Shown here piece by piece: positions 36,053-57,073 of a DNA stretch of 64,000 nucleotides. The position numbers were made by a program, and so were the translations under genes. Under the pieces are notes generated by a model that saw only the letters and a program-made list of their open reading frames with translations, did not search any database and was not told the DNA's origin. Where the stretch lies: contig NZ_CP071090.1 in the NCBI RefSeq assembly GCF_017301735.1, forward strand, positions 10,096,001-10,160,000, read 5' to 3'. Positions within the stretch are counted from its first letter, which is position 1. Each line of letters opens with the position of its first letter. This stretch comes from Pyxidicoccus parkwaysis (GTDB lineage Bacteria; Myxococcota; Myxococcia; Myxococcales; Myxococcaceae).

Positions 36053-38260
36053 TCAGTGGACGAAGGACTCCGCCTGGCGGATGGCGTCCACCGGCTCGTC
36101 GCGGAAGCCGGAGAGCAGGTCGCGGCGGATTTCGAGGACCTGCTTCACCTGCTCGAGCTCGCGGATGGGCCCCACCTTGAGGCTCGGCTTCTCCGGGAGG
36201 CCCAGCGGGTCGATGGGCACGACGCCCAACACGTCCTGGAGCTTGGGCAACAGCTCCGGGTGGAACACGGGCATCCGCACGCACGACGTGCACCACGCAA
36301 TCGCATACAGGCGCTGGAAGCGGCGCTCGAGGTCCGCGTAGCGCCACCGGGGCGCGACGTTCTGCCAGTCCGGCGACTCGTGGAAGCCGCCCGGGCCTCC
36401 GCCCGTGAGGAAGCGGGAGAGCTGCGCCGGGATGCCGGACTCCGGGTCCACGTGCGAGAAGAACGTGTCCGTCTCACCGGAGTGGCAGCCGTTGCACGTG
36501 TTGAGTGAGAAGTCGTGGCGCGCGCAGACGTCACGAGGCTGCGCCGGGTCGATGACCCACGACTCCCACGCATACGGCGACATGTGCGAGTGGCCGCCGC
36601 GGAAGGGCTGCCCCTGGAACGCATACGGGACGGAGTAGCTGGAGCGGCACCGGTCCGGCAGCGGGCCGAAGGGTGCCGCAATCCCCGTGCGCACAGCGCC
36701 CACCACGAAGGCATCCGTCGCGCTGTTGCCGGTGCTCGGGTACTGCGCGTCGTCCGGCGTCTGCGCCACCGTGTGCGGCCGCAGCAGGCCGTCGGACGGA
36801 ACGTCCGTGCCCCGCTCGGGCTTCTCGTCCGTCAGGGTGAACTCGCGCATCTCCCAGCCGTCGCCGGGCGTCGAGTCCACCAGCGCGTTCTCATTCGTGC
36901 GGAGCTGCTTGAGCGCGCTCTCGTTGCCCCGCTCGGGCGCGGCGCCCGAGCGGATGACCTCGTCCGTCAGTCCCTGGAGGTGCTCCAGGTACTCAGTGGT
37001 GAAGCCCGGGAAGGTGTTGAGCTGGGTCCACTCGCGAGCCCACTTCGCCACCCGCGCGCAGCCCGTCACCGGCACGCCGTACTCCAGGTTGAGGGTGAAG
37101 CGCTTGAGCTTGCACGTGGCCTCCGTGCGCTCGCCCTTCAGCGCGGGCTGCACCAGGCCGAAGACGAAGCGCAGCTCTCCCGCGTCCGTCGGCGCGCCCG
37201 TCGTCCCGCCACCGTAGCCGCCCAGCCCGCGCCCCACGCCTCCCAGGTCCAACCGGTTGACGATGGCCAGCAGGCGGAACGGCGCTTCGTCCAAATCCAG
37301 CGGCCCGTCGATGCTGACTTCACGGCCGTACTTGCCATCCACCAGCACGGCATTGGCGCCGCTCGCCCGGGCCCAGGGCACGATGACCTCGTCGAACATC
37401 GCCACGCGGGCTTCCACCCTGTCCCCGTTCACCGTGACGTCGTTGAGCCAGAGCGACAGCCACGAGAGCACGAACTCCTCCGCCGTGTACCCCGAGGCCG
37501 CAGCCGCCTCCCGCATCAGGTGAGCGAAGGTCCACACCCCGCCCTGCTTTCCCTTGTCCGTGCACGGGTCCCACGTCCGCGACTCGTCCTGCACCACCTC
37601 CTTCGCGGTGATGAACAGCGACTGGCCCCACGCCTGCTCCGTGGAGACCGGGAGCAACGGACAGAGATTGAGCCCCACCGGCAGGCCGGACTCGAACGAC
37701 TTGCGGTCGAACGCGACGCCGCGGCTCAGCGCCACGGGAGTCCTTCCCTCGAAGATGATGGCCTTTTCGGTCGTCTCGCCGAACTTGCCCGACGCGAGCA
37801 CCTCCTCCGCTTCCTGCCGCCGCTCCACCTCGGCGCCATCGAACTGGCCGAGCAGACCGAAGGTGTCCTCGCCCAGACTGTCGGAGAGGATGCCCAGCTC
37901 CTTCAGCGCATCGGAGCGAACGAGGAGCCGCGCGTCGTCCGGCTCACCAACGACGCGCACGAGGCTGTCCGCCAGCTCCTTGTTCTTCGGCGGCGGCAGC
38001 TTGACGAGCACCACCGAGTCCTCATCCAGACCCGCGGAGGACTCGAGCCGCTGGATGAAGCGCGAGGTGACCCTCTCCGGCTCCGTCTCCGGCAGCTTGT
38101 CCAAGGACTCGCGCCGGGATTGATGAGTCAGCGTTCGAGACTCACCGGATGACGGAGGAGCAGAGGCGGACGGCTCCTTCGAGCAGCCCGCGGACAACAG
38201 GAGGCTCCCCGCCAGCAATAGCGAGGACAGGGGACGGCGCGTGTCGTGGTGCATGTTCAC
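36053..38260 (-). CDS. large lipoprotein with CxxCH haem-type motif
   Basis: The 735-residue protein has a lipoprotein signal with lipobox LSAGC (Cys26). A long region with no family I recognise follows, and then, near the C-terminus, CNGCH (Cys589, Cys592, His593), a haem c attachment motif. Another CxxC (WCTSC) lies near residue 657. One haem site and no cytochrome-like surround of known type suggest a specialised cytochrome or a non-haem redox site. It starts at GTG, overlapping the stop of the propeller lipoprotein gene by four bases (GTGA); an ATG lies two codons later. It ends the protease/dockerin locus, so it is probably co-expressed with that lipoprotein. Confidence 0.8.
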   Translation of the reverse strand: MNMHHDTRRPLSSLLLAGSLLLSAGCSKEPSASAPPSSGESRTLTHQSRRESLDKLPETEPERVTSRFIQRLESSAGLDEDSVVLVKLPPPKNKELADSLVRVVGEPDDARLLVRSDALKELGILSDSLGEDTFGLLGQFDGAEVERRQEAEEVLASGKFGETTEKAIIFEGRTPVALSRGVAFDRKSFESGLPVGLNLCPLLPVSTEQAWGQSLFITAKEVVQDESRTWDPCTDKGKQGGVWTFAHLMREAAAASGYTAEEFVLSWLSLWLNDVTVNGDRVEARVAMFDEVIVPWARASGANAVLVDGKYGREVSIDGPLDLDEAPFRLLAIVNRLDLGGVGRGLGGYGGGTTGAPTDAGELRFVFGLVQPALKGERTEATCKLKRFTLNLEYGVPVTGCARVAKWAREWTQLNTFPGFTTEYLEHLQGLTDEVIRSGAAPERGNESALKQLRTNENALVDSTPGDGWEMREFTLTDEKPERGTDVPSDGLLRPHTVAQTPDDAQYPSTGNSATDAFVVGAVRTGIAAPFGPLPDRCRSSYSVPYAFQGQPFRGGHSHMSPYAWESWVIDPAQPRDVCARHDFSLNTCNGCHSGETDTFFSHVDPESGIPAQLSRFLTGGGPGGFHESPDWQNVAPRWRYADLERRFQRLYAIAWCTSCVRMPVFHPELLPKLQDVLGVVPIDPLGLPEKPSLKVGPIRELEQVKQVLEIRRDLLSGFRDEPVDAIRQAESFVH

Positions 38261-40548
38261 CTGGCTTGGAGTGAAGGCACTTCGGTGGTCACGGTGACGG
38301 CGTTGTTCATCCCCATCACCAGCCGTCCACCGGCGAAGGCGATGGAGCGCACGGCGGAGGGCGTCTCGTGGCGCGCGAGCACGGACATGTCATCGACGGC
38401 GAGCGCGATGACTCCGACGGGACGCGAGCTGAGGGCCAGCCACGCCACGCTCCCGTCGAAGGCGAGGATGCGCGAGACGTCGAGCGGGTCCGAGCCCTGC
38501 GACAGGTCCGCGTGCTCGAGGACGGCGATGCGCTCTCCCTCGTGTCCCAGCAGGTACACCTTGTGGCCGTTCTCGATGACCAGCGCCCTGTCCCGGGCGA
38601 GCGCCATCGCGGTGAACTGGTCGGTGGTGCCGAGCAGCTCTCCACGAGCGACGGTGCCGGAGGAGTCGCCGGGGAACCACGAGAACATGAGCCGCGAGGT
38701 GCCCGACGCGAGGTCGTAGAAGGTCTCCCCCTGCAGCAGGTCTCCCCGGTCCGCATCCGCCGTGAGCGCCCAGCCCGAGGGCGTCACGCTGTCCGGGTGT
38801 CCGCCCCGGACGATGTCCTCACGCTCGGGAGACAGCAGCGTCCCGTCACACTCGCGAGGCAGCGTGAAGTGCCGCACGCGGTACGAGCCCGAGGACAGCC
38901 GGGCCACCTGGACGAGCTGCCCCCTCGAGGACGCGAGCGCCGCAGGGCCACCTTCCACGCGCAGACTCCCACGCTCCTCCAGGAGTCCGGTGAGGCCCGG
39001 CCGCAGGCAGCTCAGCCGCGCGGTGCCTGCCTCCTGCGACACGCCGGGCTCACCCACGGAGACGGTCGCCAGCTCCCACGTGTCGTCCACGCCAGAGCGC
39101 GGAAGCAACCGGAGCCGCTGCGTCCCGGGCGTGAGCGCCATGCCTCCGCCGACGACGATGGGCCCATCCACGGGCTCGATGGCAAGGCGGTGCACGGCGA
39201 AGGGCCCCACCGCGGTGACGTCCCCGCTCGCCCCCACCCACAGGCGCTCCAGCGAGCCGTGTCCTACGCCGGTGAGGAAGCGCATCGCCCCGGACGCATC
39301 CACCTCCAGCACGCGGCGCCACGGCTGCACCACGGCATGGCGCCCACCCGCCGTCATCCCCAGCGGCGTGACGTGGAGCCCCACCTCGTCGCTCTCACGG
39401 AGCAGCAGCGTGCTCCGCACGTCCGAGACACTGGTGCCCGTGAGCGCGAAGGACTCCACCTCGTAGGCGCGCGTGGAGCCGCGCACGCGGAACCACTCCA
39501 CGAGCAGCCCCGCGTCGTTCACCACGAAGCCCACCGGGCTCTCCCAGATGGGAGTGGTGCGCGGGGCGAAGGTCTTCACGGGCACGGGGTCCGTCGTGCC
39601 ATTCAGGTCCGCCGCGCGGAACACGAGGATGCGGCCCATGCCGCCATAGGGAATGAGCTCCTGCGCCAACACGAGCGCGCCATGGGCCTGGACCTGGAAG
39701 AAGGCCTGCCGCGCGAAGTACTGACGGCCCACGACGGGCGGCGAGCGCGTCACATCCACGTTCACGAAGCCCCGCTGGGTGCTCACGAGCAGCCGCGTGC
39801 CATCCGGCGACAGCGCCAGCGAGCGGCACACTCCCGGCAGCACGAAGCTGCGCGTGGTGTCCGCGCTCAGCACGTTGCCGGGCCCCACGCGCCATGCCGT
39901 CACGTAGTAGCTGGAGCACGTCCAGAAGAGGTCTCCCCGGCCCGCGCCGGAGAGGATGCTGTCGCTGCTGGGGGGCAACGCGTAGCTCGACAGCGAGGAG
40001 ATTCGGTCTCCCTCCAGCCCCAGCAGCTCCAGGCGCTGCCGGCTCCCCACGACGACGACGCGGTCCGGTCCGATGGGAAAGAAGAAGGTGGAGAACCGGT
40101 CCGACCAGTCCCAGCTCCCGAAGTAGCGGTCCACGTACAAATCGAAGACGCGCTGGTCCAGCGTGCGCAGCCCGTCCGGGCCCGCGCGAACCAGTGAGAC
40201 GGACATGCCGACGCCGTCCAGCCGCTCGCCGAAGAGGATGCGACCATCGGACACGGACTCCGCCAGGCCCTCCAGCGGGGGACGTCCTCCCTCGGCCGGG
40301 TCCGCGCCGTAGCTGAGCACGGTGCCGGAGCCCCACGACACCGGAGTGGGCGCGTCCATGGCGCTAGCGTGCGACGCCTCCCGTGGCGCCTCGTCGATGG
40401 AAGGGGGTGCATCCGTGGCGCCAGTGAGCGCTTTCTCTCGTGGCGCCTCGTCAGCGGAAGGGAGCGCGCCCGCCGAGCACGCGCAGGACAGCAGGACCAG
40501 CAGGAGCACTCGGCTCCGCGACACCACGGGCGACATCACGTCGGGCAT
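38257..40548 (-). CDS. propeller-like lipoprotein B, paralogue of the gene at 42891-45359
   Basis: The 763-residue protein has a signal peptide with a Cys-rich lipobox (LLSCAC), a linker with repeated DEAPRE units, and a long beta-rich body. The body is built from short blades: repeated segments such as LALSPDGTRLLVS, FVLPGVCRSLA and late FDGSVAWLALSSRPVGVIAL. It has no catalytic motif I can see. Blade-like repeats suggest a seven- or eight-bladed propeller or two smaller ones. It aligns over almost its whole length with the 822-residue lipoprotein upstream, with matched words such as PPLEGLAESVSD and WTC. The start at 40548 has AGGGGGAC just upstream, right after a strong hairpin. Confidence 0.82.
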   Translation of the reverse strand: MPDVMSPVVSRSRVLLLVLLSCACSAGALPSADEAPREKALTGATDAPPSIDEAPREASHASAMDAPTPVSWGSGTVLSYGADPAEGGRPPLEGLAESVSDGRILFGERLDGVGMSVSLVRAGPDGLRTLDQRVFDLYVDRYFGSWDWSDRFSTFFFPIGPDRVVVVGSRQRLELLGLEGDRISSLSSYALPPSSDSILSGAGRGDLFWTCSSYYVTAWRVGPGNVLSADTTRSFVLPGVCRSLALSPDGTRLLVSTQRGFVNVDVTRSPPVVGRQYFARQAFFQVQAHGALVLAQELIPYGGMGRILVFRAADLNGTTDPVPVKTFAPRTTPIWESPVGFVVNDAGLLVEWFRVRGSTRAYEVESFALTGTSVSDVRSTLLLRESDEVGLHVTPLGMTAGGRHAVVQPWRRVLEVDASGAMRFLTGVGHGSLERLWVGASGDVTAVGPFAVHRLAIEPVDGPIVVGGGMALTPGTQRLRLLPRSGVDDTWELATVSVGEPGVSQEAGTARLSCLRPGLTGLLEERGSLRVEGGPAALASSRGQLVQVARLSSGSYRVRHFTLPRECDGTLLSPEREDIVRGGHPDSVTPSGWALTADADRGDLLQGETFYDLASGTSRLMFSWFPGDSSGTVARGELLGTTDQFTAMALARDRALVIENGHKVYLLGHEGERIAVLEHADLSQGSDPLDVSRILAFDGSVAWLALSSRPVGVIALAVDDMSVLARHETPSAVRSIAFAGGRLVMGMNNAVTVTTEVPSLQAR

Positions 40549-40578
40549 ACAGTCCCCCTTCACTCCAGCGAAGAACAG

Positions 40579-40616
40579 CCGCGGCCCGGGCAAAGACAGA
40601 CATGCCCGGGCCGCGG
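40579..40616 (-). terminator. perfect 14-bp hairpin between VWA-dockerin 1 and lipoprotein B
   Basis: CCGCGGCCCGGGCA and TGCCCGGGCCGCGG pair without mismatch around a ten-base loop. It starts 15 bases past the VWA stop and lies about 30 bases before the lipoprotein start. No T-run follows, so it could be a terminator, a partial stop or an RNA-stability element. Confidence 0.6.
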
Positions 40617-40630
40617 TGAGACACCTCGGA

Positions 40631-41635
40631 CTACTTCGCCGTCGTCGTGCAGCCGCGGCCGTAGTTCTGGAGCACCGTGTTGTGGTCGTAGATGTTCACG
40701 ATGCCGTCGCGGTTGAAGTCCGTCGGCGTGCCGGCGGGCACCGTCTGGCCGTACTGCGCGAGCACGGCCGAGCGGTCCGCGACGTTGACGCAGCCGTCGC
40801 CGGTGGCGTCACCCGGCACCGGAGTGGCCTGGGCCGGCGGCGTGGACGGGGTGATGCCCGCGTAGCGGCCGTGCGTCTCGTTGCTCAGCCCGCCGAAGAA
40901 GGCGGCGTCGGCGTTCACCGCCGCGGCCGAGGCGAAGCTGTTGCGGCTGTCGCGGACCTCCTTGTCCTCGGTGAAGGTGGTGGCCTGGAACGGGACGAAG
41001 TCATAGAGGTGGTCGATGTCCACGATGAGCGTCAGGCCCGCGGGAGGAATGCCGCCGGAGCAGGGGCCCGGGGTATTCGCGTTGCCCGTGCACGCCTTGT
41101 TGCGCACCTTCCACTGCCAGCTATTGGTGTCCAGCGACGGGTAGGGATTGGCGCTGCTGGGGCCCCAGCACTGGTCGGTGTTCGGCGTGGCGTTCTCCTC
41201 GCCGTCCGTCGCCATGTAGATGCGCTTGGAGTGGAACTGGTTGGGCAGGTAGTTGATGAGCGAGTCCACCGCCGCGCAGACCGACTTGGCCAGCGGCGTG
41301 TTGCCGCCCAGCACGGCCGCGTTGACCGCCGCCTTCACCTCCGCCGCCGTCTTGTTCTGGGCGAAGCTGAAGACCTCGACGTAGCCCGTGCCCTCGAACG
41401 TCCAGAAGGAATACTTCGACACCTGGGGCGGAACGATGTCCAGGAAGGCGTTGATGCGCTCCTTGGCCACCTGGAAGCGCGTCTTCCCGGGCACCGACTC
41501 GAGGCCCATGCTGCCCGTCCGGTCCAGCAGGACGAGCACGTGCTCATCCGCGCTCGCCACACCGGACGTCAATGCCGCCGCGCACGCCACGCTCATCGCC
41601 GCCCGAGGAAACAGTCGCTGAAAGACAGACTTCAT
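40631..41635 (-). CDS. secreted VWA protein with dockerin-like C-terminus, copy 1
   Basis: The 334-residue product has a signal peptide (residues 1-29), then a VWA domain with an adhesion-site motif DRTGSM (Asp38, Thr40, Ser42) and ATDGEEN. It also has a Cys-bearing loop with two CxG/GPC pairs and a dockerin-like tail (about residues 275-334). The tail has two calcium-loop repeats, GDATGDGCVNVADRSAVLAQ and DFNRDGIVNIYDHNTVLQN, and ends GRGC plus a few residues. VWA domains bind proteins via a metal ion. The start at 41635 has AGGGGG seven bases upstream. It lies 70 bases after the trypsin-fold protease gene and is the closest relative of the VWA protein at 45463-46479. Confidence 0.88.
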   Translation of the reverse strand: MKSVFQRLFPRAAMSVACAAALTSGVASADEHVLVLLDRTGSMGLESVPGKTRFQVAKERINAFLDIVPPQVSKYSFWTFEGTGYVEVFSFAQNKTAAEVKAAVNAAVLGGNTPLAKSVCAAVDSLINYLPNQFHSKRIYMATDGEENATPNTDQCWGPSSANPYPSLDTNSWQWKVRNKACTGNANTPGPCSGGIPPAGLTLIVDIDHLYDFVPFQATTFTEDKEVRDSRNSFASAAAVNADAAFFGGLSNETHGRYAGITPSTPPAQATPVPGDATGDGCVNVADRSAVLAQYGQTVPAGTPTDFNRDGIVNIYDHNTVLQNYGRGCTTTAK

Positions 41636-41705
41636 GTGGGTACCCCCTAGGATTGGCTGCTCATGCACTGCTTCGACTTCGCTTCGTTCACTGCCTACGG
41701 CGGGG

Positions 41706-42743
41706 CTACGGGCAACCCTGCCCGTAGTTCTGGAGGACGATGAGGCGGTCCTGGATGTTGATGATTCCGTCGCGCGTCAGGTCCAACGCGGGGTCGGCGG
41801 GAGGCACCGTCTGGCCGAAGGCCGCGGTGACCTGGTTCAGGTCCGTGTCATTCACGCAGCCGTCCGCATTCACGTCGCCGAACACGGTGACGGTGCCGGT
41901 GTAGCCGCGAATCCACGGCACGAAGCGGCTCACCCGCGCGAAGACGGTGTAGCTGCTGCACGTGCCGCCCACGCCCCAGCTGACGACGCCAATCTGCTCC
42001 CAGCCGCCGCTGAAGCGGCCGCTCTCCACGACGAGCGGCCCGCCGCTGTCGCCGTGGCAGCCACCGGACGTGCCGTTGACGAACCCGGCGCACACCATGC
42101 TGTCGCGCACCGTGAGGGGCAGCGTCCCCGCGTTGTTGCACGTGGCGGTGTCCTGCACCGGCAGCAGCGTCTCCATCAGCACGTCCGACGCGCCGCTCTG
42201 CGGATAGGTGTTGCCCCAGCCGCTCACGCGCGCGGTGGCCCCTACCGCGGCGTCCGTCGCGCGCAGGGCAATGGGCTGCACGCGCGGGGTGAAGGTCACA
42301 GGCGAGGCCAGCTCGAGCAGCGCGACGTCGTTCTCCAGCAAGCCGTTGAAGTTCGGGTGTCTCACGACGCGGCGCACGCCCCGCGTCTGCACATAGCTGT
42401 CCGGCGCGGAGCGCTGGTGCAGTCCCAGGCGGACGGTGAAGCTGCCCGCGCTGATTCCGTCCACGCAGTGGGCCGCGGTGAGCACCCAGTCATTGTCGAT
42501 GAGCGAGCCGCCGCACCAGTGCGAGTACCCCGGAATGGACAACTGCGCCTGCCACGGGTACTCGCCCACGTCCGCCGCGTTGCCGCCGATGATGTCCGAC
42601 TCCACGGAGGCCGTGGGCTCCACGGACACGTCCTCCGGCTCGGACGGCACACAGCCCACCTGTGGCACCGCCAATGCCAGACACAGCAGCACGCCCCCCG
42701 CCCCCAGACGCGACCATTTCGTCTCCACCGACTCCGTCTTCAT
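41706..42743 (-). CDS. secreted trypsin-fold serine protease with dockerin-like C-terminus
   Basis: The 345-residue protein has a signal peptide with possible lipobox-like QVGC (Cys31), an S1A activation site at IIGG (residues 51-54), and the triad His92 (TAAHC), Asp139 (NDVALL) and Ser233 (GDSGGP). The residue matching trypsin Asp189 is Gly227, so Arg/Lys specificity is unlikely; a small or hydrophobic pocket is more probable. A dockerin-like tail (about 289-345) follows with the loops GDVNADGCVN and DLTRDGIINI, ending GQGCP. The start at 42743 has AAGGAG seven bases upstream. It precedes the VWA-dockerin gene in the same direction. Confidence 0.9.
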   Translation of the reverse strand: MKTESVETKWSRLGAGGVLLCLALAVPQVGCVPSEPEDVSVEPTASVESDIIGGNAADVGEYPWQAQLSIPGYSHWCGGSLIDNDWVLTAAHCVDGISAGSFTVRLGLHQRSAPDSYVQTRGVRRVVRHPNFNGLLENDVALLELASPVTFTPRVQPIALRATDAAVGATARVSGWGNTYPQSGASDVLMETLLPVQDTATCNNAGTLPLTVRDSMVCAGFVNGTSGGCHGDSGGPLVVESGRFSGGWEQIGVVSWGVGGTCSSYTVFARVSRFVPWIRGYTGTVTVFGDVNADGCVNDTDLNQVTAAFGQTVPPADPALDLTRDGIINIQDRLIVLQNYGQGCP

Positions 42744-42890
42744 ATGGCGCTCCTTGTTGGGTTGTTCGCTGCAACGGCAGACACACGTCTCGCGCTCGCC
42801 TCGGGACATACCCGGGCGCTCAGGACAGACCTGGATGGCTTCAGCCCCTCTGACTGGAAACGGGAATGGCCTTACTTCTTCGTGCAAAAA

Positions 42891-45359
42891 CTAATTAACC
42901 TGAATTTCTCCGCAGACGGGTGTGGCGACGGTGAGCGCGTCATTCATGCCGAACACGAGCCACTCGCCGGAGACGACGAGCGAGCGCACGGCGGTGGGCG
43001 TGGTGTAGCGCGCGAGCACGGACAGGTCGTCCGCGCGCAGGGCGACGACACCGAAGGGTGACGAGGCGAGGGCGAGGTAGGCCACCGTGCCGTCGAAGGC
43101 GAGGATGCGCCGGACGTCCAGCGGCGCCGGGAGCTGGGACAGGTCCACGTGCTTGCGCGTGACGACCTGTGTGCCCTGGCGCTCCAGCAGATACACCTGC
43201 CGGCCGTTCTCGATGACCAGGGCGCGCCCCTTCGCGAGCGCGAGCGCGGTGAACTGGTCCGTCGTCCCGGACAGCACGCCGGTGGCGGCGTCTCCTCCCG
43301 TCCACGACGACCAGCGCAGCGACAGCCGCGAGGGGTCCCCGGGCGTTCCGAAGCGGACCTCGCCCAGCAGCACCTCCGAGCGCTCTCCATCCACCGCGAA
43401 GGCCCAGTCCGTGCGCGTCCCCGAGCCGCCGTCCAGGGTGAGAAGCTTTTCGTCCGCGGGCGCGAGCACGGCGCCCGTGCACGTCGTGGGCAGCGTGAAG
43501 CGGCGCAGCCGGTAGGCGCCCTGCGACGTGGCCGCCATCTGGAAGAGCTGCCCGTTCGTGGACATCAGGGCCGCCGGGCCTCCCGCGACGCTCACCTGGC
43601 CCGCCGGCTCCAGCAGCGCTCCGGCGCCGGGGCGCAGACAACTCAGCACCGCGGTGCCGTCCTCCTGGTGCACGTGGGAGCCGCTGACGGGCACCGTCAC
43701 CAACTCCAGGGGCCCCTGCCCCGAGACGGACGGCGCGAGCCGCAGCCTCCGCGTGTCCGCCGGCAGCAGCATGCCGCCCGTGGCGAGCGTGGGCTGCTCG
43801 GGATTCGTCAGGTCCACGCGGTGGGACTCGAAGGGCCCCACGGCCAGGAGGGTGCCATCCGCCGCCGCGCGCACGCGCTCCAGGGCGCCATGCGCGACGC
43901 CCGTCTTGAAGCGCATCACGCCGCCGTCCTCCAGCGTGAGCACGCGTCGCCACGGCTGCAGCACCGCGTGCCGCCCCGCGCCGGTGAGCAGCAGCGGCGA
44001 GAGGTGCAGCCCCACCTCCTCGCCCTCCCGCAGGAGGATGCTGCCCATCACCGAAGAGACGCCGCCCGCCGTCAGGCCGTGCCGCTCCACCGTGTACGAG
44101 CGCAGCGTGCCCACCAGGCGGAACCACTCAATCAACAGCTCGCCGTCCAGCAGCACGAAGCCCAGGGGACGCTCCCAGCGCCCCGCGCCCTCCATGGGAG
44201 CGAAGGTCGCCACCGGCGAAGGCGTCCCCGTGCCGGCCAGGTCCGCCGCGCGATACACGAAGATGCGGCCCAGCTCTCCGTAGCGGAGCAACTCGTGCGC
44301 GACGACGAAGTCGCCGCGCGCCTGCACGTGGAAGAAGGCCTGGGTGCCGAAGAGGGTGGGCCGGACGACGGCGCCCGTCGGCGAGGACACGTCCACCGGC
44401 ACGAGGCCCAGCGCGGTCGCCGCCCACAGCGTGCGGCCATCCGGAGAGAGGGCCAGCGAGCGGCACGTGCCTCCGGGAAGCTGGAAGCTCTGCGCGGCGT
44501 CCTGGCCGAGCGACGCATCCGCGCCCACGCGCCACGCTGTCACCACGTAGCCCGCGCACGTCCAGAAGCGCTCTCCGCGCCCCGCGCCGGAGACGATGCT
44601 GTCGCTGGTGGGCGGCAGCGTGTACCGCGACAGCGAGGCGAGGCGGTCTCCCTCCAGCCCGAGCAACTCCACGCGCTGCCGCGTCCCCACGGCGACGACG
44701 CGGTCCGCACCGAGGGGAACGAAGAACGTGGTGAAGCGGTCCGACCAGTCCCACGTCCCCAGGAAGCGCTCGGCGTACAGGTCCAGCACGCGCTGGTCCA
44801 GTCGCACCAGTCCCTCCGGGCCCACGCGCACCAGGGACACCGAGAGGCCGACACCGCCCAGGGGCTCGCCGAACAGGATGCGGTCATCCGAGACGGACTC
44901 CGCCAGCCCCTCCAGCGGGGGACCTCCATGCTCCGCCGGGTCCGCGCCGTGGCTCCACACGGTGCCGAACGTCGCGGCGGGACGGGTGAGGGGCTCGCCC
45001 TTGCATGCGCCACTCATGCAGCGGTCTCCCGTCGTGCACGCCTCGCCGTCATCACAGCCGGTGCCATCCGGCGCGGCGGGGTAGACGCACTGGCCGGACT
45101 CGTCGAGCCGCTCCGCCGTGCATGGGTTGTCGTCATGGCACACTCCCGCGTCGGGCTCTCCTACCGGGCCTGCGTCCGGCTCCCCGGCGTCGGGCCGTCC
45201 AGCGTCAGGCTCACCGGCATCGCGCGCTCCCGCATCCACCACGCCCGCGTCGTCGGAGGAGCCATCCTGGGGTGACACCCCCGGCGGCTCGCCCGCGCAG
45301 GCCATGAGCATCGCGACCAGCAGACCCACCGGTGCACGCGACCAGCCTGGAAGCAACAT
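42891..45359 (-). CDS. propeller-like lipoprotein A with DAG-rich linker, paralogue of the gene at 38257-40548
   Basis: The 822-residue protein has a lipoprotein signal ending LMAC (Cys21). A run of Asp-Ala-Gly units follows (residues about 33-70), then a Cys-rich segment of the myxobacterial type with DDNPCT and CDDGEACTTGDRC, and a long beta-rich body similar along its length to lipoprotein B. Shared words include DPAEHGGPPLEGLAESVSDD, SLALSPDGRTL, GTTDQFTALALA and AFDGTVAYLALASSP. No catalytic motif is visible. The extra linker and Cys-rich part are absent from copy B, so the two have diverged most at the N-terminus. The start at 45359 has AGGAAGG upstream. Confidence 0.82.
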   Translation of the reverse strand: MLLPGWSRAPVGLLVAMLMACAGEPPGVSPQDGSSDDAGVVDAGARDAGEPDAGRPDAGEPDAGPVGEPDAGVCHDDNPCTAERLDESGQCVYPAAPDGTGCDDGEACTTGDRCMSGACKGEPLTRPAATFGTVWSHGADPAEHGGPPLEGLAESVSDDRILFGEPLGGVGLSVSLVRVGPEGLVRLDQRVLDLYAERFLGTWDWSDRFTTFFVPLGADRVVAVGTRQRVELLGLEGDRLASLSRYTLPPTSDSIVSGAGRGERFWTCAGYVVTAWRVGADASLGQDAAQSFQLPGGTCRSLALSPDGRTLWAATALGLVPVDVSSPTGAVVRPTLFGTQAFFHVQARGDFVVAHELLRYGELGRIFVYRAADLAGTGTPSPVATFAPMEGAGRWERPLGFVLLDGELLIEWFRLVGTLRSYTVERHGLTAGGVSSVMGSILLREGEEVGLHLSPLLLTGAGRHAVLQPWRRVLTLEDGGVMRFKTGVAHGALERVRAAADGTLLAVGPFESHRVDLTNPEQPTLATGGMLLPADTRRLRLAPSVSGQGPLELVTVPVSGSHVHQEDGTAVLSCLRPGAGALLEPAGQVSVAGGPAALMSTNGQLFQMAATSQGAYRLRRFTLPTTCTGAVLAPADEKLLTLDGGSGTRTDWAFAVDGERSEVLLGEVRFGTPGDPSRLSLRWSSWTGGDAATGVLSGTTDQFTALALAKGRALVIENGRQVYLLERQGTQVVTRKHVDLSQLPAPLDVRRILAFDGTVAYLALASSPFGVVALRADDLSVLARYTTPTAVRSLVVSGEWLVFGMNDALTVATPVCGEIQVN

Positions 45360-45418
45360 GGCGGAAACCTTCCTGGGCTCCGGTGCCGGCTCCACCAGAA
45401 CCCTCCGGGACGAAGAGG

Positions 45419-45451
45419 CCACCGGGCGCGCAACGAGGCCACGCCCGGTGG
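45419..45451 (-). terminator. hairpin between VWA-dockerin 2 and lipoprotein A
   Basis: CCACCGGGCG and CGCCCGGTGG form a perfect ten-base stem around a 13-base loop, 12 bases past the VWA stop. It occupies the same relative place as the hairpin at 40579-40616 in the other module. Confidence 0.5.
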
Positions 45452-45462
45452 GTATAGCGGGG

Positions 45463-46479
45463 CTACTTCGTCGTGACGGTGCAGCCGCGGCCGTAGTTGT
45501 TCAGCACCGTCTGGTAGTCGGCGGAGTCGACCGTCAGGTTGCGGTTGAAGTCATACGGCGTGCCGGCGGGAACCGTCTTGCCGTACGCGGCCAGCACCAC
45601 CGAGCGGTCCGTGACATTCACGCAGCCGTCCAGGTTCGCGTCACCGGCCAGCGCGGTGGCCTGCCCCGCGGGCGTCGACGGGGTGATGGTCTGGTAGCGC
45701 CCCTTCGTGTCCTTGGTGAGGCCCTGGAAGAACGAGGCGTCGGTGGCCGCGGTTGCGCCCGCCGTGAAGCCCGTGGCCCACTCCGCGTCCTCGAGGCCTC
45801 CGGAGCGCGCCTCTCCATTGAGGGCGACGGTGAAGTCGAGGAGGTGGTCCACGTCCATGACCATCGTCAGCCCCGGCGGCCACGGAGGCGGGAGGGTTCC
45901 GCAGACGCCGGGCTCGGTGGCGATGCCGGTGCACGCCTTGTTGCGCACCTTCCACTGCCAGCTCCCCACGTCGAGGTTGGGCCAGGCATTCACGGTGTTC
46001 GGGCCGTAGCACTGGTCCGTGGTGGGCGTGGCGTTCTCCTCACCGTCGGTGGCCATGTACAGGCGCTTGTTGTGGAGCTGGGTGGGGAGGAAGTTCAGCA
46101 GGTGGTCGATGCCCGCGCAGATGGAGTGGGCCAGCGGAGTGTTGCCGCCAGCGACGGTGGCATTGACCGCGGCCTTTATCTCCGCCGCAGTCTTGTTCTG
46201 GGCGAAGGTGTAGACGGGCGTGGCGGCCGTCCCGGAGAACGTCCAGAACGAATACTTCGTGGGCGTGGTGGGCACGGCGTCCAGGAAGCTGTTGATGCGC
46301 TCCTTGGCCACCTGGAGGCGCGTCTTCCCGGGGATGGACAACGTGGACATGCTGCCCGTCACGTCGAGGAGGATGAGGACGTGGTCGTCCGCCATCGCCG
46401 CGCTGGAGGACAGCCCGCCCGCGCAGGCGAGCGCCACGGCGGTCCGGGAGAGGAGACGTCGTTGGGTTGCGTTGCTCAT
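45463..46479 (-). CDS. secreted VWA protein with dockerin-like C-terminus, copy 2
   Basis: This 338-residue protein is a clear paralogue of the VWA protein at 40631-41635. It has a signal peptide (residues 1-30), a VWA domain with DVTGSM (Asp39, Thr41, Ser43) and ATDGEEN, a Cys-bearing loop with KACTG and VCGTLPPP, and a dockerin-like tail (about 279-338). The first calcium loop is intact (GDANLDGCVN). The second is degraded: DFNRNLTVDSAD has Asn and Leu where Asp and Gly are usual. The tail still ends GRGC plus a few residues. It lies 33 bases after the subtilisin gene, so these two are almost certainly co-transcribed. Confidence 0.88.
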   Translation of the reverse strand: MSNATQRRLLSRTAVALACAGGLSSSAAMADDHVLILLDVTGSMSTLSIPGKTRLQVAKERINSFLDAVPTTPTKYSFWTFSGTAATPVYTFAQNKTAAEIKAAVNATVAGGNTPLAHSICAGIDHLLNFLPTQLHNKRLYMATDGEENATPTTDQCYGPNTVNAWPNLDVGSWQWKVRNKACTGIATEPGVCGTLPPPWPPGLTMVMDVDHLLDFTVALNGEARSGGLEDAEWATGFTAGATAATDASFFQGLTKDTKGRYQTITPSTPAGQATALAGDANLDGCVNVTDRSVVLAAYGKTVPAGTPYDFNRNLTVDSADYQTVLNNYGRGCTVTTK

Positions 46480-46512
46480 GTTTGAAGGACCTGTGTGTCG
46501 CGGGGTTGGGTG

Positions 46513-48987
46513 TTACGGGCAGCCCTTGCCGTAGTTCTGCAGGGCGATGTTGCGGTCGAAGATGTTGATGATGGCGTCGGCGTTGAGGTCCAACGCGGGG
46601 TCGGCGGGAGGCACCGTCTGGCCAATGGCCGCGGTGATGAGGTTGATGTCGTCGGCATTCACGCAGCCGTTGCCGTTGACGTCGCCCACCACGATGACGC
46701 CGCCGCTGACCACCAGGCCGTAGTCCGCGTCCACCGCCGTGGTCTCCACGTGGGAGTCCTGGACGATTTCGTCACCCAGCACCTCCACCTTCCACTTGCC
46801 GGCGGCGGGGTTCTGGATGAACACGTTCTCCACCGTGTCGATGGTGTTGGACGTGCCACCCGCCGTGGAGAAGTTGCCCGCCGTCAGGCCGTTGTTGCCC
46901 CAGTAGACGGTGCCGTTGGGAGCCGTCACCCGGAGCGACAAGTCATTGATGCGCGCCTGCGCCGCGCCGACGGTGCCCATCGGGTCCGTGAAGACGAGCG
47001 TGACGTTCAGCTCCGTCTCACCGGACAGGACGGTGACGTTGTAGGACTTGACGCCCAGCGGGGTGATGACGTCCGTCTCGTCGATGATGCTCGTCTTGGG
47101 CGCGCGGTCATACAGCCGGCGGATGTCGGAGGTGCCCCAGCCCTGCTTGTAACGGTCGATGTCCGAGTTGGAGCCGCCGGCCAGCCAGTTGTACCGATAG
47201 GCGTTGTTGATCATCAGCGCCTTGGCGGTGGCCATCTGCGGGCGGCTGGTGAACACGTCCGCCTTGCCGCCGAAGCCGCTCCAGACGCTCTCGTGCCACA
47301 TCTGGAAGAGCAGGCCGAAGTGGCCCGCCGTCTGCGGCGTGGCGGAGCTGGTGCCGCCGAACTGGGTGTAGTTGGTGTTGCCGCTGCCCGTGGCGGAGTG
47401 GATGGAGTCGTAGAAGTACGACAGGTCCGGCTTGATGCGGCCGTCCGCCGCGGGGCCGATGCTGCCGCTGAAGTTCCACTTGTCATCCGCGCGGGTGAGG
47501 GTGTTCTGGTGGTTGAACGCGCCCACGGAGACGATGTTCTTCGCCCACGCCTGCGGGCGTGAGTTGCGGTTGCCCGTGTTGCTCTGCGACTGCGTGCTGA
47601 GGATGGGGTGCTTGAAGAGGTAGTCATCCACCTCGGCGGAGACGGTGGTGTAGGCGGTGACCTGGGCGCTGCCCACGCTGGAGGTCTGGAACACGGCGCG
47701 GTAGGTCCCGGCCGGGTCCGTCAGCTCGCGGTTGATGTCGTAGCGGGACTTGGTGCCGCCGAACTGGGTGGACTCGCTGTAGCGGAAGTAGATGCCCTGC
47801 GCGCTGGGAATCATGCCGCGCGCGGCGGGCACGGCGCCCCGGGCGAAGATGTTGCTGTAGCAGCTCGTGCCGTGGAGCGAGCCCGTGGTGCCCGTGCTGT
47901 GGATGATGGGCGCGGTGTTGGAGAACTCCTGGTGCGTGGTGAGCAGCTCGGTGTCGAAGACCTCGCCGCGCACGCCCTGGCCCGTCCAGCCCTTGAGCCC
48001 CTCCAGGTAGTTGGCGCCGCCAATCTCGCGGACGATGTCCATGTCCACGCCGCCGGGGCCACCCCACCGGTCGATGAACTGCACCGCGTTGGAGCGGGCC
48101 ACCTCGCGCAGCTGGGCCGCGGTGAGCGTGGCCTCCACACGCAGGCCGCCCGGCTCGATGAGCTCCACCGTGCCGCCCAGCCGCTGCACCAGGCCGGCCA
48201 CCTGGCCCTGCCGCCGGGCACCACCCTCACCCAGCATGATGGAGTAGCGCTGCGGCGCCAGCTCCGGCGCCAGCCCCATCAGGGCGTCGCGCAGCTCACG
48301 CTCCAGCCGGTACTCGGGATGGTACGGCCCCACCCAGCGCACGTAGGGCAATTCCGCCACGCGCTTGCGAGCGTCCGCGTCCAATTCCACCAGGAAGGTG
48401 TGGTCCGTGAGGAAGCGCAGCACCTTGCCGCCGTCGCGCTCGATGGCCTCGCGGAACTCCGGCAGCGGCGTCCCGAGGAACTGCACCAGGTGCAGCGTGT
48501 TGTCCGAGTCCGCGGCGAGCTGGCTGCTGGCCAGCGGCTGCGTGCCCTGGAGCGGGTCGAACTGCGCCGAGTCGAGACGCACCAGGTAGCGCGTGTCCCT
48601 CACGCGGCCGAGCGTCTCCGTCCCGCCGCGTGTATACGCCGTGTAGGACTGACGCGTTCCGTCCTCCTGCAACTCCTGCCACGTATGGAGTTGGATGGCC
48701 GTGCCGGGGACCTGGATGGAGCGCAGCGCGGAGACAGGCCTGGCGGTGCGGTGAAACACCAGCCCGGCCGGAGTCACGAGCGAGTAATCCCTGGCGCTAC
48801 CCGAGAGCGCATCACGCGAGCCGGTGACGAGCTCCGCGGGAGGCAGCGCGGCAGCACGCGCCGGAACAGACGGCTTCGCGTTGGACGGGCCCGCGACGGC
48901 GGACAGAGGTGCAACGAAGACACAACCCACCATCAGGGCCCGCAGCGGACGCACTCCGCCCACGGCCCACGGCGACGACTTTCGCAT
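46513..48987 (-). CDS. secreted subtilisin-like (S8) protease with dockerin-like C-terminus
   Basis: The 824-residue protein has a signal peptide (about residues 1-32), a long propeptide-like region and then the S8 domain. The catalytic triad is Asp345 (GEVFDTE), His372 (LHGTSC) and Ser547 (GTSSATP), with an inserted loop between His and Ser. A beta-rich domain resembling a proprotein-convertase P domain (about residues 645-755, LSLRVTAPNGTVYWG) follows, then the dockerin-like tail (about 768-824, GDVNGNGCVN and DLNADAIINI, ending GKGCP). It heads the duplicated locus, with a candidate -35 TTGACA upstream. The next gene, VWA-dockerin 2, follows by 33 bases. Confidence 0.9.
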   Translation of the reverse strand: MRKSSPWAVGGVRPLRALMVGCVFVAPLSAVAGPSNAKPSVPARAAALPPAELVTGSRDALSGSARDYSLVTPAGLVFHRTARPVSALRSIQVPGTAIQLHTWQELQEDGTRQSYTAYTRGGTETLGRVRDTRYLVRLDSAQFDPLQGTQPLASSQLAADSDNTLHLVQFLGTPLPEFREAIERDGGKVLRFLTDHTFLVELDADARKRVAELPYVRWVGPYHPEYRLERELRDALMGLAPELAPQRYSIMLGEGGARRQGQVAGLVQRLGGTVELIEPGGLRVEATLTAAQLREVARSNAVQFIDRWGGPGGVDMDIVREIGGANYLEGLKGWTGQGVRGEVFDTELLTTHQEFSNTAPIIHSTGTTGSLHGTSCYSNIFARGAVPAARGMIPSAQGIYFRYSESTQFGGTKSRYDINRELTDPAGTYRAVFQTSSVGSAQVTAYTTVSAEVDDYLFKHPILSTQSQSNTGNRNSRPQAWAKNIVSVGAFNHQNTLTRADDKWNFSGSIGPAADGRIKPDLSYFYDSIHSATGSGNTNYTQFGGTSSATPQTAGHFGLLFQMWHESVWSGFGGKADVFTSRPQMATAKALMINNAYRYNWLAGGSNSDIDRYKQGWGTSDIRRLYDRAPKTSIIDETDVITPLGVKSYNVTVLSGETELNVTLVFTDPMGTVGAAQARINDLSLRVTAPNGTVYWGNNGLTAGNFSTAGGTSNTIDTVENVFIQNPAAGKWKVEVLGDEIVQDSHVETTAVDADYGLVVSGGVIVVGDVNGNGCVNADDINLITAAIGQTVPPADPALDLNADAIINIFDRNIALQNYGKGCP

Positions 48988-51129: not shown

Positions 51130-52038
51130 TTACTCACGCGCAAGGCGGTGATCCAGCAGAACGTACCCCTGCCGAAGTCCGTCATCGCGGAAGAACTCCA
51201 AGGCGAGGTCGGTGAAGCCGCCATCTGACTTGAAGGCGCTCCTGTCCGCGACAACGGCGAAGCGCCCGGATGCGCCGGGCGCAATGGAGTCCCGGTCCAT
51301 GCGCAGGGCAAACGGTCTGGCCTCTCCCGTGGTCGTCGATGACAGGCGGGCTTCCATGAGGCGCCACTGCTGCTCCGAGTTCCGATTCGTGATGTGGAAC
51401 ACGACAGCGGCTTTTGCCTTGCCCGAATAGACTCGGACGACCATCTCCACTCCGTCATCCCTGAGCACCCACTTCTGGTTCTCGATGAACGGGGTCTGCT
51501 TAGTAGACCCACTGACCAACAGTGAAGCCAGGGCATGGTCGGGTGAGGTCTCTTCCTTGCGGTACCGGGCGTTCTCCTCCCTGAGGGCCCGCTCGCGAGC
51601 GAGCGCATCTGACAAGGCCGCATGTACGGCCAGCGAGGCCTCGCGGTCCGTGAACACGTTCACCTGCTGGTCCCCGGCACCCTCTCGTGCGGTCACGATG
51701 AATGGAACTTCCGTTCCATCCGTGAGCTTCACCAGGAGCGGCAGACGGTCTTCAGGCTCGAGGTTCTGGAGCGGAACCAGGAGCACCGACATGCCACCGA
51801 CAACCGGTTGCTCGAAACGCCCTTCCCACCCCAAGAGCCTCGTGCCCTGCGAGTCACAGGCCTTCTCGAAGTGGAGCACGGTTGCGACCCGACCGGTGAC
51901 GTACACCTCGGACGCGGTGTTGTTCGGGTGGTCCGAGAGATAGATGTTCCGGACAACAGCTTCGCGCTCCCCGGCCGCAGCCACGGACGTTGCGAGGAGA
52001 ATGAGCAGGACACAACCGCCCGGCAGGAGCTTCCTCAT
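51130..52038 (-). CDS. DUF2381 family protein (myxobacterial envelope family)
   Basis: This 302-residue protein has a signal peptide (residues 1-22), then the beta-rich DUF2381 (TIGR02268) domain. Matching segments are RNIYLSDHPNNTASEVYVTG early, WEGRFEQPVVGG, VPLQNLEPEDRLPL, a helical linker around residues 140-165 and a C-terminal immunoglobulin-like part (LEFFRDDGLRQGYVLLDHR). The family is known from myxobacteria, with no established function. It lies between the ATPase/PIN pair (51-base gap) and the small lipoprotein gene (11 bases), on the same strand. Third positions look less GC-saturated than in the flanking genes. Confidence 0.82.
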   Translation of the reverse strand: MRKLLPGGCVLLILLATSVAAAGEREAVVRNIYLSDHPNNTASEVYVTGRVATVLHFEKACDSQGTRLLGWEGRFEQPVVGGMSVLLVPLQNLEPEDRLPLLVKLTDGTEVPFIVTAREGAGDQQVNVFTDREASLAVHAALSDALARERALREENARYRKEETSPDHALASLLVSGSTKQTPFIENQKWVLRDDGVEMVVRVYSGKAKAAVVFHITNRNSEQQWRLMEARLSSTTTGEARPFALRMDRDSIAPGASGRFAVVADRSAFKSDGGFTDLALEFFRDDGLRQGYVLLDHRLARE

Positions 52039-52089
52039 GATGAGCAGAGAACCTACCAGGGAGGGCTCAAAGCGACCAACCCAGGAACA

Positions 52090-52548
52090 TCACATCTCGG
52101 GAGGTCGGTCGTAGCTGGCGAGGTGCTCGTCGAGCGACCAGATGTAGACCCGGTGGCCGGGAGACAGTGCGCACTGATGCTCGTAGTCCTTCACGATGGA
52201 CAGGTCTCCAAACCCACTGCCCTGCAAGGTCCATTTGGGGAACTCGTCCAGCCACTTCGCCAGGGAATCCCGCGTCAGGAAGCGCGTAGGGGTGAAGGGT
52301 GACTGGCCATCCAGCGCCAGCTTGACCTGCTCCGTGAACCGCATTGCGGCGTGCCGCCGTGCATTGCCGTCCCCGTTCTGGCCGATGTGGTTTCCCGTCT
52401 CCAGGATGGTCGTCATCGGCAGAAGCAGGGTTTCATTCGCCTTGGTCTTCTCTCTGAACTGAGCAAACACCGCACCACGCTGTTGGCAGCGATTCGGCAC
52501 GGAGAGCAGGTTGCAGAAGATGCTCGTGTCGACGATGCAGACGGTCAC
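52090..52548 (-). CDS. PIN-domain protein (putative ribonuclease), coupled to an AAA ATPase
   Basis: The 152-residue protein matches a PIN fold: an N-terminal strand ending in Asp7 (CIVDTSIF), a second acidic residue Glu50 (TTILETGN), a third acidic site Asp115 (GSGFGDLSIVKDYE) and Asp140 (WSLDEHLASY). All four acidic positions of the family are present, so RNA cleavage with a metal is expected. The GTG start overlaps the stop of the ATPase gene by four bases (GTGA). PIN proteins are often toxins of toxin-antitoxin pairs or effector nucleases; here no small antitoxin is visible, and the ATPase takes that place. Confidence 0.82.
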   Translation of the reverse strand: MTVCIVDTSIFCNLLSVPNRCQQRGAVFAQFREKTKANETLLLPMTTILETGNHIGQNGDGNARRHAAMRFTEQVKLALDGQSPFTPTRFLTRDSLAKWLDEFPKWTLQGSGFGDLSIVKDYEHQCALSPGHRVYIWSLDEHLASYDRPPEM

Positions 52549-53885
52549 GGCTCTCTCGACGCAGATTCGAGCATCTCCAAGACCTTCTGGGCCTGAGCCG
52601 CCTTCTCCTCAGGTGTCTTCGGATGCTTGAGGTAACGCTCGAGGATGCCTCGCGTGACGAGCTGCCCAACGGGACCTTGCGCGACCAACTCCGGATAGTC
52701 CGGCAGGTCCCGCAGCGGCATCAACCGGCTGTCACCTTCCTTGGGGTCTCGGTAGCAGGCGACGACGTCGGGAATGGCATCGGTGGGGATGGCGTCGAGA
52801 AGAGCCGGGTTGTGCGTCGTGAGGAGCACGCGCAGCTTCCGCTCCCGAGCGACTCGCTGGATGTTGTCGAGCAGCAGCTTCGCCCGGGTGGGATGCACAC
52901 CGTTGTCGATCTCCTCGATGACTATGAGCGCGCCCTCGGGCACCGAGAGTAGGGCCGCCGCCACGGAGAGCACCCGCAAGGTGCCGTCGGAGAGGAGCGC
53001 CGCTTCGTAGGTTCGAGCCTTCCCACCGAAGCCTTCGGTGAGTTGCACCATGACCTCTTCTCGCGGCGTCTTGAGGAAGGTCACATCGAGGATGTCCTGC
53101 TCGGGCAGGGCACGCACGAAGTCCAGCACCTGCGCCTTGCGCTGCTGCCTCTCGCAGAGGTCATACAGGACAGCGGACAGGTTGTAACCGTCCCCCTGGA
53201 GCACACGGTCCACCGTGAAGCTGTACTCGCGCATCCGGCGCGGGACCGAGTCCAGGAAGAGGATGGACTCCAGCGTGGACTGGAGCGCCTTCGCCGCTTG
53301 AGGAATGTGATGCGCGCCATCCTCACTCCCAAAGCGCGCGGGCGTGGTCATTTGTGTGAAGAAGGCTTGTTGGTCCGAGCAGACAATCCCCTTCGCACCA
53401 CTGCCTTGACGAGTGTTGTACGCAACAGTGACATCGCCGCTATAGACACTGCGCCGCGACTCCAGCTCGCCGTCGTAAAGCCAATCTCCCTCTTCGAAAG
53501 GAGACGCTTCTGAGCGGGCTTCGAATGCGAAGGCCCTCTCATCTATGACATGGAGGCCATCTTCCCGCAGGCCGATGGCCACCTCCATGGCAACCCCGCG
53601 ATGAGATTCGGGCTCGGTGAGGATCCGGCAGCCGAGGTTAAACCGATCCTCGCCGCCGAATGCGAGCCGCGAGATGGGTCCACGAACGTCCAGTTGCCGC
53701 TCTTTCAGAGCGTAGAGAATTTCGGAGAGTCGCCGCCCCCGGGCAAGCCACGACAGGAACTGCAGCGCCTCGATGAGGTTGCTCTTGCCCGAGGCGTTGG
53801 CTCCGATGAGCACCGTGAGCTCCGCCAGTGGCAGTTCCGCCCTGAAGTAGCTCTTGAAGTTGTAGACCGTCAGCGCGGTCAACAT
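52545..53885 (-). CDS. AAA family ATPase (AAA_21/OLD-like), partner of the PIN protein
   Basis: The 446-residue protein has an SMC/RecF-like ABC fold: a Walker A GANASGKSN (from Gly28) after the start MLTALTVYNFKSYFRAE, a central helical insert, a signature-like LLSDGTLR, and a Walker B LIVIEEIDNGVHP, with LLTTHNP as the switch. It is not RecF: its layout is that of the AAA_21 or OLD-like group, whose members often pair with a nuclease. The PIN gene overlaps its end by four bases. The start at 53885 has GGGAGG upstream; a longer frame lacks features. The gene lies just after gyrB and is less GC-rich, which may reflect transfer. Confidence 0.85.
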   Translation of the reverse strand: MLTALTVYNFKSYFRAELPLAELTVLIGANASGKSNLIEALQFLSWLARGRRLSEILYALKERQLDVRGPISRLAFGGEDRFNLGCRILTEPESHRGVAMEVAIGLREDGLHVIDERAFAFEARSEASPFEEGDWLYDGELESRRSVYSGDVTVAYNTRQGSGAKGIVCSDQQAFFTQMTTPARFGSEDGAHHIPQAAKALQSTLESILFLDSVPRRMREYSFTVDRVLQGDGYNLSAVLYDLCERQQRKAQVLDFVRALPEQDILDVTFLKTPREEVMVQLTEGFGGKARTYEAALLSDGTLRVLSVAAALLSVPEGALIVIEEIDNGVHPTRAKLLLDNIQRVARERKLRVLLTTHNPALLDAIPTDAIPDVVACYRDPKEGDSRLMPLRDLPDYPELVAQGPVGQLVTRGILERYLKHPKTPEEKAAQAQKVLEMLESASREP

Positions 53886-53961
53886 GAAATCTGGTGCCTC
53901 CCGGGAGCCGTCCCGCTCGACCGGGCGGCCCACATTCTCGATGCGGGACAACCCACACCGC

Positions 53962-53986
53962 CCCCTCTCCCACGAGGAGAGAGGGG
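53962..53986 (-). terminator. hairpin after gyrB
   Basis: CCCCTCTC and GAGAGGGG form a perfect eight-base stem around a nine-base loop, 17 bases past the gyrB stop. Similar CCCTCTCC/GGAGAGGG hairpins occur as dispersed elements in many proteobacteria, so it may also be a mobile repeat. Confidence 0.5.
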
Positions 53987-54003
53987 ACGGTGACACGACA
54001 CAC

Positions 54004-57073
<3,070 letters not shown>

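Follow-up and report, generated by a model that had tools for sequence, protein, structure and literature searches.

Dockerin-type tails on proteases and VWA proteins in a six-gene module of Pyxidicoccus parkwaysis

Proteases fused to dockerins occur in cellulosomes (PMC3573020), and subtilisin-dockerin architectures have been listed (PMC2605481). In ANME archaea and their sulphate-reducing partners, dockerins have been proposed to act in cell-cell adhesion and are listed alongside S8 protease domains (PMC10553843). Myxobacterial surface VWA adhesins include PilY1.3 (PMC9109919) and CglB (PMC13104615). These statements follow the available parts of each source.

The window analysed here is a stretch of 64,000 nucleotides from Pyxidicoccus parkwaysis, positions 10096001-10160000 of a 13.2 Mb single-contig genome. 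Named relatives are Myxococcus sp. RHSTA-1-4 and Pyxidicoccus fallax DSM 14698. The window encodes two exported proteases and two VWA proteins with the same type of dockerin-like tail, next to two lipoproteins.

Layout and gene products

An initial annotation had described a run of seven minus-strand genes, and all were found as described and in the same order. The first six form the module (38257-48987), with intergenic gaps of 3 to 40 bases measured between longest frames. The genes are, in order:

46513..48987, minus strand: S8 (subtilase) protease, secreted, 824 aa, C-terminal dockerin-type tail (tail match 46519-46686); PF00082 33.5 bits; a tail-less paralogue lies elsewhere in the genome
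46519..46686, minus strand: dockerin-type tail of the S8 protease; tail profile 111.9 bits, PF00404 25 bits, above cut-off
45463..46479, minus strand: VWA-tail protein 1, 338 aa, secreted (by eye), MIDAS residues conserved; PF13519 32.5 bits; tail match 45466-45645
42891..45422, minus strand: lipoprotein A, likely start ATG at 45359, lipobox (by eye), DAG-rich linker, probable tandem beta-propeller from translation, AF2 model, Foldseek and VIA-align
41706..42887, minus strand: trypsin-fold (S1) protease, likely start ATG at 42743, C-terminal dockerin-type tail (tail match 41712-41879); PF00089 218.4 bits, PF00404 26.8 bits
40631..41668, minus strand: VWA-tail protein 2, likely start ATG at 41635; PF13519 30.4 bits; tail match 40634-40813
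38257..40593, minus strand: lipoprotein B, 57 % identical to lipoprotein A by translation and alignment
36053..38260, minus strand: CxxCH lipoprotein of a widespread family, a neighbour only; 4-base overlap with the end of the lipoprotein B gene

Pfam assigned S8, VWA_2 (twice) and trypsin domains to the module proteins. The catalytic motifs of both proteases are intact by eye (S8 Asp/His/Ser; trypsin His/Asp/Ser), so both enzymes should be active. In the VWA domains the MIDAS motif (DxSxS...T...D) is present, with D9, S13, T84 and D115 invariant in six of six aligned sequences and S or T at position 11, and metal binding is predicted. The AF2 model of a VWA-tail protein (pLDDT 35.8) was of no use for the fold. 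A promoter scan of the locus found no sigma-70-like site, and terminator-like sites numbered 4 against 4.3 expected.

The paralogue pairs noticed in the initial annotation are real: the lipoproteins share 57 % identity over 688 columns and the VWA proteins 61 % over 333. Its proteases of different clans carry the same tail, with 70 % identity between S8 and trypsin tails over 64 residues. Its inclusion of the CxxCH lipoprotein did not hold. That family has matches in 59 of 116 genomes, many without the module, and in one genome with a reduced module (G107) the best match lies on a different contig from the module; the gene was rejected as a module part.

Beyond the module (window 51130-56622), a DNA gyrase B gene (54004-56622) adjoins an AAA_21 ATPase gene (52545-53996), and a DUF2381 gene (51130-52038) lies further on.

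The window's lipoproteins have lipobox-like signal ends (by eye); lipoprotein B of genome G012 has no clear lipobox. The best match of the lipoprotein to PDB by sequence had E 0.26. An AlphaFold model of lipoprotein A from five sequences has a mean pLDDT of 57.7, with the middle part under 50. Residues 23-369, the first half, align with the WD40 propeller 6pwv_A (Z 18.8, rmsd 3.7, 268 aligned). Foldseek placed multi-propeller proteins first, the top match being 2hye_A (DDB1) at E 5e-12 with a TM of only 0.30. Lipoprotein A is thus a probable tandem propeller with an uncertain middle, and the propeller lipoprotein of the initial annotation gains backing from a predicted model of modest confidence that matches WD40 propellers.

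The dockerin-type tail

The tail is 55 to 58 residues long and has two dockerin-type loops. When a profile of 22 tails (A4) was compared with solved structures, dockerins ranked first (2y3n_B, E 2.3e-9) and both repeats were covered. By this comparison the tail belongs, in diverged form, with the type I dockerins of known structure. It has two calcium-type loops, would be expected to bind calcium, and contains two invariant cysteines. Ten columns are conserved in 50 or 51 of 51 tails from fetched loci. The loop aspartates at columns 2, 13, 33 and 44 and the first cysteine are present in 51/51, as is the final cysteine (read from the list of tails). The two cysteines may form a disulphide staple; the available part of one source describes a non-covalent clasp that joins the ends of some cellulosomal dockerins (PMC5934362).

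Curated models recover the tails in part. On whole proteins, Dockerin_1 (PF00404, cut-off 22.9) scored the trypsin protein at 26.8, S8 at 19.7, VWA1 at 16.6 and VWA2 at 14.2 bits. A six-frame PF00404 search of the genome (E<=0.001) found the trypsin tail (30.8 bits) and the S8 tail (25 bits), both above cut-off, with no other match in the genome. A profile built from the four module tails recovers all four, by construction, and one weak match elsewhere; tail profiles give five dockerin-type tails in the genome, four of them in the module. With the GC-type dockerin model NF041540 (cut-off 29 bits), the trypsin protein reached 20.5 and VWA2 15.2 bits, and S8 and VWA1 had no match at E<=0.1; the module tails therefore fail the curated cut-off (best 20.5 of 29 bits). 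At E<=0.05, seven of 14 tail proteins match NF041540, with a best E of 0.00047.

Two other dockerin-like proteins were seen. A secreted protein of the window's own genome (L074:6165-7139, contig 1 near 2.807 Mb) has a GC-type dockerin end scoring 36.7 bits with NF041540 and is unlinked to the module; relatives occur in L073 (37.3 bits) and in L077, in the same cluster. In G107, a thermolysin-like (M4) metalloprotease of 1408 aa (L075:6704-10930) has a weak C-terminal dockerin-like match (17.6 bits).

The tail was surveyed in 116 genomes drawn from the class, with a threshold of E<=0.001 and strong matches defined as 48 bits or more. Matches were found in 31/116 genomes: 23 have strong ones (53 in total) and eight have weak ones only (23 to 28 bits). 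Forty of the 53 strong tails are on one secreted VWA family, nine on S8 and four on trypsin proteins (coordinates matched by hand). Strong tails are limited to VWA, S8 and trypsin proteins in the genomes searched. At E<=1e-20 the 116 genomes hold 46 matches to the VWA family, and six of these lack a tail. When 195 genomes of the phylum were searched, strong tails (here at least 70 bits) were confined to the window's own taxonomic family, including two further genomes (G147 and G158); tail matches in two genomes outside that family score 25 to 42 bits. VWA-family relatives that lack the tail were seen at L094:5656-6426 and L093:6332-6958, and the one in L094 adjoins a very long frame that is YD/Rhs-like by eye.

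This restriction bears on a doubtful alternative, in which the tail acts by itself as a signal for sorting or surface retention, a GC-type dockerin 'anchor' read by machinery encoded elsewhere, and the operon merely co-regulates its genes without a propeller-dockerin complex. The related domain carries the NCBIfam name 'GC-type dockerin domain-anchored protein', and the genome has the unlinked member, at 36.7 against 29 bits. The tail is also C-terminal in the 51 listed tails: Gly-Cys or Gly-x-Cys closes it, and between 0 and about 20 residues come after. However, a general sorting signal ought to occur on many proteins rather than on VWA, S8 and trypsin proteins only, and the module tails stay at or below 20.5 bits on the NCBIfam model.

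Lipoprotein linkage and gene history

The lipoprotein occurs in 9/116 genomes, and in 9/9 it is adjoined by an S8-tail gene and at least one VWA-tail gene. The full six-gene module is present in G000, G074 and G078, and in G082 as far as the contig end. The layout in G012 is S8, VWA, lipoprotein, VWA, lipoprotein. G107 has S8, lipoprotein, VWA, lipoprotein, having kept lipoprotein A and lost its VWA gene. G015, G036 and G045 have a single S8, VWA, lipoprotein set. Co-occurrence in other genomes had been proposed in the initial annotation as the check on its module, and all nine lipoprotein genomes have VWA-tail and S8-tail neighbours. A chance cluster was rejected on this co-occurrence and on the flanking genes, which differ among the G000 group, G012, G107 and the three single-copy genomes. 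A pairing of tailed protease with tailed VWA protein in every genome proved wrong, as 14 genomes that lack the lipoprotein carry strong tails on VWA proteins alone.

In a lipoprotein tree of 14 rows, A and B split with full support; G012 is on both sides and the three single-copy genomes fall within A. Module VWA proteins also separate by position, with lower support (bootstrap 91 and 92). In the tail tree, trypsin and S8 tails group together against all module VWA tails (100/100), and the nine S8 tails form a group that excludes the trypsin tails (84/72, not strong). The gene trees are consistent with the duplication with protease exchange proposed in the initial annotation. They fit one old duplication of the three-gene unit, after which trypsin would have replaced the second S8 catalytic part with the tail kept, and G012, G107 and the single-copy genomes would have lost genes later. 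Alternatively, the trypsin may have captured its tail later. In ten genomes searched at E<=1e-30, nothing outside the module is closely related to the trypsin part, the next best match reaching 38 %.

Paralogues of the S8 part with 68-74 % identity are encoded elsewhere in nine of ten genomes searched (11 in total; none listed for G074). Nine of the 11 stop within about 10 residues of the position where the tail starts, and the other two continue into a different extension of about 340 residues. In the S8 tree the nine tailed copies cluster together (82/81, not strong). Since most paralogues end about where the tail begins and the tailed copies cluster, what most clearly marks the module's S8 copy is its tail. 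In the two long paralogues (L082:5056-8448 and L083:2899-6276), the extension of about 340 residues replaces the tail and is apparently made of two repeats (by eye).

A second context was found in 14 other strong-tail genomes, where VWA-tail genes belong to a different conserved set (15 loci, L057-L060 and L062-L072). Their partners are an RCC1 propeller protein, a cytochrome with four CxxCH (haem) motifs (by eye) and two secreted proteins of no assigned family. RCC1 was assigned by Pfam on one member, and a lipobox is visible by eye in most. All four partners were found by tblastn in 15/15 loci. In 14 of the 15 the RCC1 gene adjoins a VWA-tail gene; the exception is L072, where it lies at the set's far end, three genes from the VWA gene. 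One VWA-tail gene, in L061, stands without propeller genes or other partners. A tail-less M36-type metalloprotease adjoins the VWA pair in three second-context genomes (Pfam on one). One secreted partner, used as a marker, occurs in 15/116 genomes, 14 with a VWA-tail gene and the fifteenth (G039) without the other partners. The lipoprotein (9 genomes) and the marker (15) never coincide among the 116 genomes, yet this zero overlap is not in itself significant (about 0.3, by hand from the counts), and mutual exclusion of the two contexts was set aside.

A propeller gene is thereby present in 24/25 fetched VWA-tail loci. The 24 loci go back to two evolutionary events and do not count as 24 independent cases, and the propeller is a common fold. 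RCC1 and lipoprotein A/B profiles align over the signal-peptide stretch only (hhalign probability 0.5 %).

Docking partners and comparison with known systems

Our tentative reading is that the operon encodes a cell-surface protease/adhesin assembly whose tails dock to a receptor other than a classical cohesin, the propeller lipoproteins being the best candidates. The S8 and S1 proteases and two VWA proteins would be exported with the same family of tail, which is small, probably calcium-bound and disulphide-stapled. The tails would collect proteases and VWA proteins on the outer surface through a non-cohesin receptor, with the propeller lipoprotein genes next to each VWA gene supplying the best candidates. 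The VWA protein may then grip a prey, matrix or neighbour-cell protein, and the docked protease may cut it. This proposal draws on sequence and trees: the homology of the tails, their restriction to three protein classes, the tail-less S8 paralogue, the linkage to the lipoproteins and the absence of a recognised cohesin. Several observations speak against it: the VWA-tail gene of L061 that stands alone, the distant RCC1 gene in L072, the lipoprotein A kept without its VWA in G107 and the unclear lipobox of lipoprotein B in G012. A wider version, which we hold to be somewhat unlikely, is a cohesin-free docking system in which the tails bind outer-membrane beta-propeller lipoproteins, two unrelated propeller families serve as receptor, and proteases were added to a VWA surface complex by tail grafting.

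The cohesin model PF00963 had no match in the window's own genome at E<=1, nor in any of the 23 strong-tail genomes at E<=0.1, and the positive control, Methanosarcina acetivorans, was recovered both times. At E<=0.1 it matches five of 116 genomes (G032, G099, G105, G013 and G101), one above the cut-off and none with strong tails; these are taken as the same 116-genome draw as in the tail survey. None of the 23 strong-tail genomes thus had a recognised cohesin, the partner that the initial annotation had named for dockerins. These searches make it unlikely that a classical cohesin-dockerin system operates through a cohesin that has diverged strongly and lies in an unlinked gene. That alternative draws on the binding of cohesins by well-studied dockerins and on the escape of diverged jelly-roll domains from sequence models; PF00963 would miss a diverged cohesin.

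Loop positions 10-11 contact the cohesin in classical dockerins. Residues at these positions differ among S8, trypsin and VWA tails (by eye), which counts against a single common receptor. The same differences would be expected of partners, and most tails lie together as two to four neighbours, as if protease-VWA or VWA-VWA tails paired in a self-contained complex while the lipoproteins serve another role. Such pairing is very improbable: G028, G052 and G109 have just one tail each, and we know of no dockerins that pair with one another.

The tentative assembly narrows the general question of what dockerins bind in genomes without a cohesin to a small, testable case, with five tails in the genome, four of them in the module, and two candidate receptors next door. 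Closely related S8 proteases with and without the tail in one genome offer a natural control. If propellers do bind the tails, they would form a new protein-protein docking pair and a route for a predatory bacterium to load surface proteases.

No description of this module was found in searches of published papers open without subscription. Dockerin proteases, dockerins in adhesion and Myxococcus VWA adhesins are known; the module's combination of these with a missing recognised cohesin was not found described. In the available parts of the sources, cellulosomal proteases and serpins with dockerins (Clostridium thermocellum and Ruminococcus flavefaciens) resemble the module in the fusion of protease to dockerin. 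In contrast to the cellulosome, the module has no recognisable cohesin, and strong tails are on VWA proteins and two proteases only, with propeller lipoproteins adjoining. GC-type dockerins (NF041540) resemble the module tails in their C-terminal position, their terminal Gly-Cys and another cysteine close to the first repeat (by eye), whereas module tails score below cut-off and have their first cysteine inside the first loop (by eye). The adhesin sets of ANME archaea and their partners have cohesins, according to the available part of that source; none was recognised here. PilY1 and CglB, as far as their sources are available, share a surface VWA domain with the module. PilY1 combines a VWA domain and a calcium-binding propeller in one chain. 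Compared by architecture, the module places VWA, calcium-type loops and propeller on separate proteins and adds proteases, and in all 24 fetched loci holding both, VWA and propeller are separate genes rather than one protein.
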